From: Geodermatophilus telluris
Lineage (GTDB): Bacteria > Actinomycetota > Actinomycetes > Mycobacteriales > Geodermatophilaceae
Assembly (NCBI RefSeq): GCF_900102745.1
Contig: NZ_FMZF01000001.1
Span: 744,001 to 808,000, forward strand
Direction of reading: 5' to 3'
Length of the DNA stretch: 64,000 nt
Shown here: piece after piece, positions 43,980 through 48,962 of the stretch
Layout: every line of letters begins with the position of its first letter
How positions within the stretch are numbered: the first letter of the stretch is position 1
Program-made: the position numbers and the translations under genes
Notes under the pieces: model-generated
Databases searched by the model: none
Told to the model about the DNA's origin: nothing
What the model saw: only the letters and a program-made list of their open reading frames with translations

Positions 43980-44219
43980 TCAGTCGGTGGGGAGGTGCAG
44001 CTCGACGTCCTCGATGACCGGGTTGGCCAGCAGCGTCTCGGCGATCTGCTGCAGCTCCGCCTCGTCGGGGGTGCCCTCGACGTCGAGGACGAAGTGCTTG
44101 CCCTGGCGGACGCCGGTCACCTGGGTGTGGCCGAGCCGGCCGAGCGCGCCGAGCACCGCCTGCCCCTGGGGGTCGGAGATCTCCGGCTTGAGGACGACGT
44201 CGACGACCACCTGGGGCAC
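43980..44219 (-). CDS. purS: Phosphoribosylformylglycinamidine synthase, subunit PurS
   Basis: A 79-residue subunit bridging PurQ and Pur[17 protein letters not shown] at the start and [10 protein letters not shown] at the end are family signatures. GTG 44219 is chosen by length, a GGGAG before it and TACGCT 8 bases upstream. It leads the purS-purQ-purL-SCP operon. A pair of palindromes and a nuclease-like gene lie immediately upstream. Confidence 0.94.
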
Positions 44220-44227
44220 GGCTCCCG

Positions 44228-44233
44228 AGCGTA
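44228..44233 (-). promoter_or_regulatory. Candidate -10 box (TACGCT) of the purS operon
   Basis: TACGCT lies 8 bases before GTG 44219. GGGAG between box and start leaves open whether the transcript is leaderless. The palindrome pair begins 56 bases further upstream. Confidence 0.45.
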
Positions 44234-44288
44234 CCGGGCGCCTCGTGGCCGCCGAGATCGGTGATGCCCGCTCCGCCCCCCTCCCTGT

Positions 44289-44348
44289 CGAGATCCCGTG
44301 ATCTCGCACCTCTGGCGCCGACCGGGCGGGCGAGATCGCGTGATCTCG
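44289..44348. repeat. Paired 18-bp palindromes, left boundary of the AbiEi/DUF559 unit
   Basis: Palindromes CGAGATCCCGTGATCTCG (44289-44306) and CGAGATCGCGTGATCTCG (44331-44348) stand 42 bases apart start to start. The second touches the stop codon of the nuclease-like gene. The right boundary has the same pair at the same spacing. Confidence 0.9.
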
Positions 44349-45224
44349 TCACCGGAGGGCCCGGCGGATCTCCGCGACGACCTCGTCCGGGCGGCCGAGC
44401 ACGTCGGACGACGTGAAGCGCAGCACGGTCCAGCCGGCCCCCACCAGGCGGTTCTGCCGGCGCGTGTCGCTGACGAAGACGTCCCGCTCCCGGTGCACGT
44501 CCCCGTCGAACTCGACGAGCAGCCGCTGCTCGGGCCAGGCGAGGTCCGCCCTGCCGAGGAACCCGCCGGCACCGTCCCGGACGACGTACTGCAGCTGAGG
44601 CGCAGGCAGGCCGGCCTCCTGCACCACCCAGCGCAGCACGGACTCCATCGGCGACTCGGCGCGCGGGTCCGCGACCGGGAGCACCTCCTGCGCCCGTGCA
44701 CAGCCGCGACCGGTGGGGCGGCGGGCCAGCTGGCGCTCGAGGTCGGCGCGGGTGCACCACCGGGCGAGGACCTGGTCGGTGACGGCGAGCAGGGCCGCGG
44801 GCTGGAGGACACCCGCGAGATCCCGCCACGTCCGCGCCGGCGCGGTGACGGGTAGTCCCTCCCGATTGACGACCTCGTCGTCCTCCAGCGCGACGCGGTG
44901 GATGCGTCGGTCGCGTCGGCTCTCCGCCCGTCCGGCGGCCGCCACGATGACATCCACCCGTCGGTCATCACGGTCCTCGAGCGGGATCTCGACTCCCCAG
45001 AGGGCGGCTGCGGTGCGGTGGCTGGCGACCGCCTGTGGCGGCGCGGTCAACAACACGGCAGCCAGTCGGGCGCGCGCATCACCGGCCATCGAGACCGGCA
45101 GGTAGGTGTCTCGCGAGAGGTGGAGCACTCCTGGCTGCTGCAGGTGCCGGTCGGTGAACCCCGCGGCGTGGGCGGCGGCCCGCGTGAGGGGACCGGTGAT
45201 GTGGAACCGCGGTCGACGCTGCAC
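44349..45224 (-). CDS. AbiEi-like N-domain plus DUF559 nuclease-like domain
   Basis: A 291-residue protein. Residues about 8-70 resemble the AbiEi-type winged helix ([14 protein letters not shown] ... [10 protein letters not shown]), and residues about 185-291 a DUF559/Vsr-like PD-(D/E)XK nuclease domain. Candidate catalytic residues are Glu194, Asp227 and Glu238-x-Asp240 (L-V-E-F-D-G), followed by [16 protein letters not shown]. No separate toxin gene (AbiEii) is present, so it is not a normal AbiE pair. Flanked on both sides by paired palindromes, it may be a mobile or selfish unit. GTG 45224 is the start. Confidence 0.82.
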
Positions 45225-45279
45225 CCCGGCACCGTGCCGCGCTCGGCAGGTCGCTCGCTCCGGCTGTCCACAGCCCCGT

Positions 45280-45339
45280 CGAGATCGCGTGATCTCGACC
45301 CCCAGAGCGGCATCGGCGAGGCGAGATCACGTGATCTCG
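45280..45339. repeat. Paired 18-bp palindromes, right boundary of the AbiEi/DUF559 unit
   Basis: CGAGATCGCGTGATCTCG (45280-45297) and CGAGATCACGTGATCTCG (45322-45339) are 42 bases apart, exactly as on the left side. The 24-base spacers differ between the two sides. Confidence 0.9.
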
Positions 45340-45355: not shown

Positions 45356-46123
45356 TCAGAAGCCGGAGACGAGCAGCCGCCACACCGCCTCGGGGGCCTC
45401 CCAGTGGGCGTTGTGCCCGGCGCCCTCGACGAGCACCGCGTCCGGGTCGACCCGCCGCATGGCGTCCGCCCCCACCATCGGGTCGGCCGACCCCGCCGCC
45501 AGCCGCAGCGGCGCCTCCGCCCGCGACAGCACCTGCTCGACCGGGGGGCCGACGGCGCCGAACGCGCGCGGGTCGAAGGCGACGGCGAACCCGCCCTCGG
45601 GGACCTCGCGCACCCCGGCCAGCGCCACCGGGTCCTCGGGCGCCACCAGGCCGGCCAGCCCGGCCAGCCGCAGGTGCCGCTCGGCGGCCTCGGCGGCGGT
45701 GGCGAACACCTGCGCCGGCCGGGCGGCCATCGCGCGGGCCCGCGCGACCTCGTCGTCCGTCCAGTCGATCTTCACGCCCAGCGCGACGACGCGGGACACC
45801 TCGACGCCGTACCAGCCGCCGGCGAGCACCGCGCCGACCACCCCGCCGAAGGAGTGGCCGAGCACGGTCACCCGGGAGGCGCCCGCGGCCAGGGCCGCCA
45901 CGTCGGCGGCGTGCACGCCGTAGCCGTAGGGCGGCTCGGCCGGTGACCGGCCGTGGCCGCGCAGGTCGGGCACCGCCCAGGCACCGGGCCAGTCGCGCTC
46001 GACCAGCGGCAGCAGCCGGCTCCACACCGCGCCGGTGGCGCCCAGTCCGTGCACCAGCAGGAGCAGGTCGCCGCCGGAACCGCCGGAGCGGTACGAGATG
46101 CCGCTACCCATCCGCCCCGCCAT
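45356..46123 (-). CDS. Alpha/beta hydrolase
   Basis: A 255-residue serine hydrolase fold: oxyanion region L-L-V-H-G-L-G-A-T-G, W-A-V-P-D-L-R-G-H-G-R-S, nucleophile elbow G-H-S-F-G-G, an Asp in G-S-A-D-P-M and the catalytic His in G-A-G-H-N-A-H-W. Substrate unknown. The ATG is 8 bases after TACTGT. Its 3' end lies 17 bases from the right palindrome pair. Confidence 0.9.
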   Translation of the reverse strand: MAGRMGSGISYRSGGSGGDLLLLVHGLGATGAVWSRLLPLVERDWPGAWAVPDLRGHGRSPAEPPYGYGVHAADVAALAAGASRVTVLGHSFGGVVGAVLAGGWYGVEVSRVVALGVKIDWTDDEVARARAMAARPAQVFATAAEAAERHLRLAGLAGLVAPEDPVALAGVREVPEGGFAVAFDPRAFGAVGPPVEQVLSRAEAPLRLAAGSADPMVGADAMRRVDPDAVLVEGAGHNAHWEAPEAVWRLLVSGF

Positions 46124-46164: not shown

Positions 46165-48750
46165 TCATGTCGTCCCGGTGGTGAAGCTCCACGTCACCGG
46201 GCTCGACGCCAGTGGGTTGCCGGCCAGGTCCGTGATCCCGCCGCCTCCTCCGGTGACCGTGACGGTGTACTGCGTGCTCGGCGCGAGAGGGGCGTCGGGG
46301 TCCAACACCCACTGGTTCGTCGTGCCGTTCCGGCTGACCGCTGCGGTCACGACCTCACCGCTCGTTGTGTTCCTCAAGGAGAAGGTGGCGGCGGTGACGT
46401 TCTGCACCGGCTCGCTGAAGGTCGCCGTGACGTTCGCGGCCAAGCGGACGCCGGTGGCGTTCGTTCCGGGCGATCGCGCCGACACCCGGGGCGCCGGCCC
46501 CGTCAGGAACGACCATGTCTGCGAGGCCAGGGCGTTGCCCGCCGCGTCCCGGACGGCCGCAGGCCCCCCGGTCAGGGCCGCGGTGAACCGCGTGTCCGGA
46601 GCGAGGTCGACGGCGGGGTCGAGCACCCACTGGTTGGTGGTCCCGTTGCGGCTCACCGTGGCGGACACGACCGCTCCGCTCGGATCGGTGAGCGTGAAGG
46701 AGGCCGTGTCCACACCCAGCACGGCTTCACTGAACGTGGCCGTGACGTTGACTGTCGGCGCCACGGCGGTGGCCCCGTCCGCCGGGGAGCGGGTCCGCAC
46801 CGTGGGTGCAACTGTGTCCCCACCACCGGTGGTGAAGTTCCAGGTGGTGGTCGGCAAGGGGTTGCCGGCGGCGTCACGGATGGCGGCCGGACCCCCGGTC
46901 AGCGTCGCCGTGTACGCCGTACCCCTCGCCAGGTCGGCTGCCGGGTTGAGCGTGGCCACCCGGGTGTTGGGGTCGTAGGTGACAGCAGCGGACACCGCTC
47001 CTCGGGTCGCGGCGTTCAGCAGGGTGAAGGTGGTCCCGCTGACGCCTTGCACCGGCTCGTCGAACGTGGCGGTGATGTTGGCGCCGACCGCGACACCGGT
47101 CGCTCCCGCCGCGGGGACGGTCACAGCCGTGGGAGCCGTCGTGTCCGGGGTCCCGGTCGTGAAGCTCCACGTCAGCGGGTCCGGGGAGAGCGGGTTCCCG
47201 GCGAGGTCCCGGATTCCGTCGGGACCGCCGGTCAGGGTGGCGGTGTACGCAGTCGCCGCGCTGAGGTCCGTGGCCGGGTCGAGGACCCACTGGTTGCCCG
47301 TCCCCTGGCTCACCGTGGCCGGTACGACCTGGTCGTCCGGGCCGCGGAGGACGAACGTCGCGTCGGAGACGCCCTGGACGGGCTCGGTGAACGTGGCGGT
47401 GACGGAGACACCCACTGCGACGTCGGTGGCCGATGCGCCGGGGCTGGTCGACGCCGACGGAGGCGTCACGTCCGAGGTCCCTCCCGCCACACCGATCTCC
47501 GCGTGCACGTAGCTCCTGATGCTGTCCGCCGACGCCAGCACCACCAGTCCGGTCTGGTCGGTGACCGGGTCCTTCGCACCCGTGGCGTTGTCGACGGCTG
47601 CAGCGACGTCCACGAAACGCTGCCCACGTCCAGGGGGGAAACTCTGGGCGCCCAGCGGGGACTGCTTGTAGTAGACGTCTCCCCCACCCGTGGGAGCGGT
47701 GGCGAAGAAGTACAGGAGCTGGTTCGTCGCGTCGACCATGATGATCGGTCGCGTCATCCTGTCGGCCACCGTTCCGGCCGAGACGAACGACCAGGTCCCC
47801 GCGCCATCCGGGCCCGGCGTCCGGGTGAGGACACCGACCAGCGGGGCGGCAGGATCCACGGGGTTGGCGAGGTCGGCGGAGGTCTTGACCGCGGCGAACA
47901 CGCGGCCCTGGGGGTCCCCGACGAGCTGCTTGAGGTTGATGTGGTCGTCAGCGGTCAGCGGCCCGGCCAGGGCGTCCTCCACCCGCCACACGCCGTCCGG
48001 CTCGTTGTCCCGGTGGACGGCGAACCGCATCGCACCGGACTCCTGGTCCGACCACATGAGCCCGATGCTGTCGCCGAAGGAGATCAGTGCGGAGAGGTCG
48101 TCGGCGCTGATGACCGTGTCGGGGACGGCGGGCTGGAACCCCGCGGTCCAGCTCGTCCCGCCGGGCCCGTTCGAGTGCGCCACCCACACGCGGGTGGCGC
48201 GGGTGTAGGTGACCCACAGCCGGCCGAGCGAGTCCTGGTCGATGGTCGCCGACTCGGAGCCGCCACCGCTGTTTAGGGTGATCGGGAACCCCGGAGCCAC
48301 CGTCCACGACCGGCTGGCAGAGTCGTACGTGAAGGCGTTGACCTGGAGATTCGAGCCGGTGGCGCGGCTGGCCACGTAGAGCTTGCCATCACGCGCGCTC
48401 CAGAGCGCGTCACCGGTGCTGTTCACGCGCGCGTCGACCTGGGTGCCGGTGTTGCGCCAGGTGTGGTCGGGCATCAGCTCGTGGATGTGGACGAGGCTCC
48501 CACCGGCGTTCACCATGAGCGCCCACCAGGAACCGTCGAGGTACCAGAGCTTGCTCTGCGGCTTGTCCTGACTCGGGCGGGTCACGGAGGCCGAGTAGGT
48601 GTGGTCGACGTAACTGACCGGCGTCCCCGGGACAGCGGACGCGACCGGCGGCCCTGCGAGCTGCCCCAGGACGACGGCTGTGAGGACCGCTAGGACCACG
48701 GACCACCGTGCACGACAGCGGGCGAGCGGTTCGACGGATGCCACGGCCAT
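46165..48750 (-). CDS. Secreted protein: propeller-like N-domain and four Ig-like (Big_5) repeats
   Basis: An 861-residue exported protein. The signal peptide covers about residues 1-39. Residues about 45-425 have repeated beta-strand units with W-Y-L-D-G-S-W-W, L-W-S-A-R-D-G-K-L-Y and G-R-L-W-V-T-Y, as in sialidase-like propellers. Residues about 430-861 are four domains of about 105 residues with V-T-A-T-F-x-E-P-V-Q, N-Q-W-V-L-D-P, Y-T-A-T-L-T-G-G and L-A-G-N-P-L, typical of SbsA-type Ig-like folds. ATG 48750 has GGGAG upstream. No anchor is seen. Base composition looks milder than in the adjacent pur genes, hinting at transfer. Confidence 0.82.
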   Translation of the reverse strand: MAVASVEPLARCRARWSVVLAVLTAVVLGQLAGPPVASAVPGTPVSYVDHTYSASVTRPSQDKPQSKLWYLDGSWWALMVNAGGSLVHIHELMPDHTWRNTGTQVDARVNSTGDALWSARDGKLYVASRATGSNLQVNAFTYDSASRSWTVAPGFPITLNSGGGSESATIDQDSLGRLWVTYTRATRVWVAHSNGPGGTSWTAGFQPAVPDTVISADDLSALISFGDSIGLMWSDQESGAMRFAVHRDNEPDGVWRVEDALAGPLTADDHINLKQLVGDPQGRVFAAVKTSADLANPVDPAAPLVGVLTRTPGPDGAGTWSFVSAGTVADRMTRPIIMVDATNQLLYFFATAPTGGGDVYYKQSPLGAQSFPPGRGQRFVDVAAAVDNATGAKDPVTDQTGLVVLASADSIRSYVHAEIGVAGGTSDVTPPSASTSPGASATDVAVGVSVTATFTEPVQGVSDATFVLRGPDDQVVPATVSQGTGNQWVLDPATDLSAATAYTATLTGGPDGIRDLAGNPLSPDPLTWSFTTGTPDTTAPTAVTVPAAGATGVAVGANITATFDEPVQGVSGTTFTLLNAATRGAVSAAVTYDPNTRVATLNPAADLARGTAYTATLTGGPAAIRDAAGNPLPTTTWNFTTGGGDTVAPTVRTRSPADGATAVAPTVNVTATFSEAVLGVDTASFTLTDPSGAVVSATVSRNGTTNQWVLDPAVDLAPDTRFTAALTGGPAAVRDAAGNALASQTWSFLTGPAPRVSARSPGTNATGVRLAANVTATFSEPVQNVTAATFSLRNTTSGEVVTAAVSRNGTTNQWVLDPDAPLAPSTQYTVTVTGGGGGITDLAGNPLASSPVTWSFTTGTT

Positions 48751-48962
48751 CGGGGACTCCCGGGATTCGGCGTCACGAGCCGACCCCAGTGCTCTGGAGG
48801 TCACCAGCCGGCCCGGTTCTGGTGGCGGGAACGTAGGCGATGCACGATGCGGGTACCAGCGCCTGTCCGCTATCCACACCCTATTTCGCACCCGGTGAGG
48901 ACAGTTTCACCGCACGCGCACGAAACCCGTACGCAGTGTTGTGCCACGGCCACGGTGCGGCG

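Follow-up and report, generated by a model that had tools for sequence, protein, structure and literature searches.

An AbiEi–DUF559 nuclease gene of Geodermatophilus telluris and the hairpin repeats that bracket it: a candidate REPIN/RAYT-like system on an unrelated enzyme

In the 64,000-nucleotide stretch of Geodermatophilus telluris DNA analysed here (the window, at its full length), a gene for a DUF559 nuclease lies between two pairs of an 18-bp palindrome; the question raised by this locus is what ties the gene to the repeats. Our best reading, with a probability of roughly 0.6, is that the nuclease and the hairpin repeats constitute one co-adapted and mobile system that resembles REPIN/RAYT on an unrelated enzyme. 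Such a system would be RAYT-free, REPIN-like and homing-like, and its binding, cutting and movement are what we infer from sequence. Comparison of genomes shows the bracketing of the gene by two inverted repeats (IRs), the dispersal of solo IRs, the coupling of IR type to nuclease type (kinship uncorrected), the horizontal swapping of units, and the gain and loss of IRs. The unit in the window is composed of the following features:

44289..44348, strand not assigned: 3′ IR of the unit, made up of palindromes 44289-44306 and 44331-44348 and adjoining the stop codon; counterpart in 49 of 64 homologues
44349..45224, minus strand: AbiEi-DUF559 nuclease gene, 291 aa, GTG start
45266..45273, minus strand: CTGTGGAC motif in the interval from the 5′ IR to the start codon; TGTGGAC in 52 of 60 units
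45280..45339, strand not assigned: 5′ IR of the unit, made up of palindromes 45280-45297 and 45322-45339; counterpart in 60 of 64 homologues

The palindrome consensus at the locus is CGAGATCnCGnGATCTCG. Both pairs have a start-to-start spacing of 42, their 24-base spacers are unlike each other, and the left pair directly adjoins the nuclease stop codon (44349-44351); a sequence-only reading of this DNA had described these positions, spacings and contacts, and all are reproduced. The window contains eight strand-matches to the palindrome (four sites; at most three mismatches) against a mean of 0.40, and none of 100 shuffles reaches eight, which places the repeats beyond chance. Because the two palindromes of a pair are mutually complementary, each pair is one IR of about 60 bp, in which the spacer ends often pair as well; the pairs proposed earlier are thus real, but each is one inverted repeat and not two separate elements. 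Folded as single-stranded DNA, the 3′ IR (z -4.1) and the 5′ IR (z -7.2) both beat all 200 shuffles. The 5′ IR is located 53 bp upstream of the nuclease start.

The 291-residue protein contains an AbiEi-like part (about residues 3-186; PADLOC match, E 1.5e-14) and a nuclease domain (about residues 191-291; DUF559, PF04480, E 4e-10), in support of the two domains suggested before, and sequence searches of NCBIfam and PDB matched the nuclease part alone. The modelled protein has both an AbiEi-type antitoxin fold and an EDxHD/Vsr-type catalytic fold; it resembles a binder of inverted repeats of the AbiEi type joined to a nuclease of the I-Bth0305I/Vsr type. Four residues, E194, D227, H244 and D253, are invariant in the 32 members aligned and are putatively the residues to which the motif name EDxHD refers. 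No AbiEii nucleotidyltransferase toxin gene is adjacent, the neighbours being purS and an alpha/beta hydrolase, and the lack of a toxin partner had been seen correctly. The genome has seven PF04480 genes, and the window gene is the sole one between palindrome pairs of this sequence. The genome has a further AbiEi-DUF559 gene (L143, C4:30368-31216; 36% identity), which is likewise bracketed by inverted repeats, of a sequence unrelated to those in the window.

Flanking IRs recur in the relatives. Of 459 confirmed Actinomycetota stretches from a single scan, the best 80 were kept, the named relatives being Geodermatophilus, Blastococcus, Modestobacter and other Geodermatophilaceae. The close set comprises 64 family homologues (E < 1e-60). 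Second-tier genes (L141-L146, L008, L009, L011 and L013) were inspected outside the 64, and L010 and L012 gave no match. With at least 16 of 20 outer bases paired, an IR exists 5′ of 60, 3′ of 49, on both sides of 47 and on either side of 62 of the 64 genes, compared with 20/212 (5′) and 11/212 (3′) in random windows of equal size. Typically, the IR ends about 50-63 bp before the start or begins 0-20 bp after the stop. Behind the 5′ IR, TGTGGAC is found in 52/60 units and in none of the background windows scanned; we take this CTGTGGAC/TGTGGAC motif to resemble the DnaA-box core of Actinobacteria (TTGTCCACA).

The IR sequence varies by lineage, with types A (GATCnCGnGATC), B (GATCGGCGATC), C (GATCTGCACA), D (ACATCGGCGATGT), E (TCTGCGATCTCG) and F (GAACTCGTGG), so that a single palindrome common to all DUF559 genes was rejected; three of the 64 loci (L079, L130, L138) fall under no regular-expression type. 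Both IRs of one gene are alike, the arm score being 15.6 within and 11.1 between loci (p 4e-26; 57 loci with both). Among 112 family genomes, 12 contain the exact pair pattern, with a spacer of 22-24 among the places listed and 14-34 permitted. G050 and G056 contain three-palindrome runs at a 41-42 bp period, more than pairs.

The repeat is also dispersed. The whole G. telluris genome contains 28 palindromes forming 14 pairs with a period of 41-42 and zero singles, a count that leaves out four isolated three-mismatch matches; 26 of the 28 are exact at fixed positions, and the spacers vary. Two of the 14 IRs bracket the DUF559 gene and twelve are situated elsewhere, so that an exclusive tie of the palindrome to one gene was rejected. 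Unlike the gene-bound ends of the earlier view, these twelve lack the gene, and they often follow the stop codons of other genes. By crude gene calls, a gene 3′ end lies at most 40 bp from 22 of 35 A-type IRs, five of the 22 being unit-flanking, and several solo IRs called "inside" genes are probably in over-long open reading frames.

The dispersed copies follow the type of the nuclease. Copy numbers come from pattern matching in 112 genomes, a genome being termed rich at three or more copies, gene-flanking copies included; typing was partly by eye, with some D-like units counted as B and G055 put in the F set. Rich genomes hold about 5-22 IR copies each. With kinship ignored, all six genomes with an A unit are rich and no genome without one is (p 4e-10). 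The corresponding figures are 13 of 15 and three for type B (p 2e-12), 13 of 15 and nine for type C (p 1e-9), and 12 of 20 and six for type F (p 3e-7). On the earlier question whether the palindromes track DUF559 genes in relatives, IR type tends to follow nuclease type, kinship uncorrected. Independent pairs, taken on a tree of these 26 genomes of the genus, are 3-0 for A, about 4.4-0 of 6 for B and about 1.8-0 of 3 for C, all in the expected direction or tied.

The coupling is also observed site by site. Six coding flanks beside solo IRs of G. telluris, at sites selected for A repeats, were traced through the 26 genus genomes. Reading covered 110 loci (30 + 80), a set to which four weak matches at L030 and a small number of others do not belong; there were 114 readable cells and 38 IRs that were typed, partly by eye. 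Compared with the resident nuclease, 32 match, four mismatch and two are in genomes without a close homologue; the permutation mean is 7.3, and none of 20,000 label permutations reaches 32. With the four A genomes excluded, 14 of 20 match against a mean of 5.0 (0 of 20,000 permutations), kinship being ignored in both tests. In the 22 genomes that have no A unit, 90 cells are readable and 18 of these hold a non-A IR, and the site L032 holds IRs of type A, B, C or F in 13 genomes. Loops at one site are homologous within a type (p 2e-5) and not across types (p 0.71); loop inheritance with re-typed arms was considered, and the cross-type loops are non-homologous, although the G047 repeat at L027 reads as a B/A hybrid. 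From these sequences, solo IRs seem to be inherited while the type persists and replaced upon type change. Of 18 outer bases, 15, 15, 15 and 16 pair in the mismatched IRs and 14-18 (mean 17.0) in the matching ones, a hint that the former are decaying; the statement that all mismatched solo IRs have decayed was dropped, as their 15-16 overlaps the range of the matching IRs.

Solo sites are empty in sister species, and the comparison shows solo IRs gained and lost at orthologous positions. At L027 and L032, the stop and start codons overlap (GTGA) in several IR-less genomes, and other genomes hold the IR between stop and start. The L032 IR of G. telluris is flanked by an exact 19-bp duplication. 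Over 110 IRs, duplication scores of at least 10 occur in 3 against 1.5 expected, and of at least 12 in 2 against 0.2. In that hybrid repeat of G047 at L027, the left palindrome is of type B and the right one of type A, and at L034, G040 contains a hairpin of another family (GATCATGGCGTCATGAC...) where A, B, C or D repeats sit elsewhere.

The insertion site of the window unit is flanked by two genes, for which the matches confirm the neighbours named earlier:

43980..44237, minus strand: purS (PF02700), 3′-side neighbour, marking the insertion site compared between species
45356..46123, minus strand: alpha/beta hydrolase (PF12697), 5′-side neighbour

Further along, an open reading frame on the minus strand (46165-48891, 908 aa) has several similar C-terminal repeats and the appearance of a surface or secreted protein.

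Among the 25 of 26 genus genomes with purS, the upstream position is occupied by a full unit in 18, by an IR only in three (G057, G058, G059) and by neither in four (G063, G053, G046, G062). The next neighbour at purS differs in several genomes, the cleanest empty allele being that of G063 and the cleanest IR-only alleles those of G057 and G059. Junctions without the gene, for which the sequence-only reading had looked to relatives, therefore exist in both empty and IR-only forms. That reading had also counted it as evidence against itself if the palindromes sat at the same sites where the gene is missing, and this is seen in the three IR-only genomes; the link is nevertheless kept, because empty sites and type coupling stand beside them, and the IR-only alleles fit solo repeats.

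The tree of the 18 purS-site proteins recovers groups C (99/97), D (100/99) and F (100/100), and weakly A (84/81). Host sisters carry unlike types (G042/G047, A/B; G045/G064, C/B; G048/G051, C/F), and at least 10 type changes exist among the 18 units. A host-clade constraint is rejected for the A, C and D genomes in the approximately unbiased (AU) test (2e-5, 1e-7 and 5e-4), the tested groups having been picked after the gene tree was seen. Comparison thus shows exchange of purS-site units between species, in which the gene tree and the species tree disagree. Furthermore, 43 of the 64 units fall into one neighbour-gene cluster (purS beside 40) and 21 into nine others, so that the unit occupies several sites.

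Outside the family, six of the 19 relatives among the best 80 (Virgisporangium, a Pseudonocardiales metagenome-assembled genome (MAG), a Nocardioidaceae MAG, Curtobacterium, Arthrobacter and Jiangella) share at least 13 bp between the 5′ and 3′ flanks, compared with 9/342 mismatched pairs. The Arthrobacter genome contains its IR in four copies, two at the gene and two elsewhere.

Several results weigh against one co-adapted mobile system. Orphan repeats exist, since 3/16 B-rich, 9/22 C-rich and 6/18 F-rich genomes are without a unit of the same type, and G057 carries 15 C-type repeats without a close nuclease homologue; conversely, some genomes with a unit have few IR copies. The Fisher and permutation tests take no account of kinship, and the independent pairs among the 26 genus genomes are too few for significance. 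The B units are not one clade (three of five group), 13/19 non-family relatives have no shared flanking repeat, and a general target-site duplication was not found over the 110 IRs.

A working scheme for the co-adapted system can nevertheless be proposed. The AbiEi part would bind the IR, probably as two protomers per IR of about 60 bp, and the I-Bth0305I/Vsr-like domain would cut within or beside IRs or target DNA. Repair of the break may then insert or replace IR copies between genes, at times with target duplication, and recombination via the bracketing IRs or the flanks may swap or delete the gene, leaving full, solo and empty alleles. The loops would drift, and the need for recognition by the resident nuclease would preserve the arms. 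From the REP/RAYT-like unit of gene and cognate end repeats proposed earlier, the bracketing, the type tracking and the empty and IR-only alleles survive; the repeat itself is mostly without the gene.

The main rival, which we consider rather unlikely, is a regulon. Here the AbiEi-like head would act at the 5′ IR as a repressor of its own promoter, in the manner of AbiEi and Rv2827c, with the nuclease domain secondary, and the dispersed IRs would be further operators or 3′-end elements with a host function. The AbiEi-type fold of the model, the position of the IR 53 bp upstream of the start and the conserved arms with variable loops all suit such a role, and the portions of the AbiEi literature available describe binding of the family to inverted repeats in its own promoter. 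A regulon leaves aside the second IR behind the stop codon in 49/64 units and the solo IRs often behind stop codons (22/35 A-type IRs, as called above), and neither the swapping of units between species nor the sister species empty at solo sites agrees with it.

Less probable still is a free-standing homing endonuclease acting at a few sites, with the hairpins as incidental boundary or terminator structures. The full and empty purS alleles, the conflict between gene tree and species tree and the modelled I-Bth0305I-like domain would be expected of it, but same-type solo IRs at many unlinked sites track the gene. That ordinary transcription terminators flank the gene by chance is, on the repeat comparisons made here, very unlikely: closeness to gene 3′ ends and strong folding fit, but the arms are sequence-specific (26/28 exact at fixed positions), one copy is upstream of the gene, types are coupled, and insertion occurs where stop and start codons of neighbouring genes overlap.

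Among known systems, REPIN/RAYT (PMC3116915) shares three features with the nuclease and hairpins: extragenic palindromes dispersed as doublets (here 28 palindromes in 14 pairs), one gene with its cognate repeat on either side, and several repeat types that are each tied to a gene of their own. However, the enzyme is an AbiEi-DUF559 protein and not a Y1 (HUH) transposase, and the copy number is about 5-22 per rich genome. PF01797 (Y1/RAYT transposase) is found in 0/26 genus genomes, the control being positive in 5/14 named genomes, and a RAYT as driver was rejected on that ground. RAYTs are described as vertically inherited in the part of PMC8049555 available; in this genus the gene is often exchanged between species, and vertical inheritance fails.

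In the case of I-Bth0305I, the modelled EDxHD/Vsr-type catalytic fold is common to both, but that enzyme is one of the phage group I homing endonucleases, the presumed DNA-binding part of the window protein is AbiEi-like, and the accessible text on I-Bth0305I mentions no link to dispersed repeats; homing in Geodermatophilus is proposed by analogy. The type IV toxin-antitoxin system AbiE (AbiEi / Rv2827c) shares the modelled AbiEi-type fold, but here there is no neighbouring toxin gene, a nuclease domain is fused on, and repeats are also present downstream of the gene and at other places in the genome. Caulobacter VsrA shares the DUF559 nuclease domain; the available part of PMC12907096 reports a VsrA-dependent SOS response in cells without a cytosine methyltransferase and mentions neither repeats nor mobility. 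In Legionella, DUF559 segments are named recombination hotspots in the portion of PMC12308824 at hand, and a term search of the accessible text of PMC3733652 gave no actinobacterial mention. No description of a link between DUF559/AbiEi nucleases and hairpins was found in the literature searched, subscription titles being mostly outside its scope.

A wider reading, which we hold tentatively and at a little under even odds, is that these genes represent an undescribed class of mobile system in several Actinomycetota orders. In this class, an AbiEi binder with an EDxHD-type nuclease would dimerise on hairpins of about 60 bp, home to gene ends and re-type the hairpins of the genome, and would itself be swapped as an allele between species. 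If so, many of the AbiEi-DUF559 genes that now lack an assigned function would drive it; Pfam continues to list DUF559 as a domain of unknown function, and relatives are numerous in Actinomycetota, as the 459 confirmed stretches indicate. It would also be a second, enzymatically unrelated REPIN/RAYT-like lifestyle, in which nuclease specificity and the sites across the genome switch jointly. Questions about REP-like repeats, such as the upkeep of the repeat population, the change of specificity and the benefit to the nuclease or the host, would then become testable.
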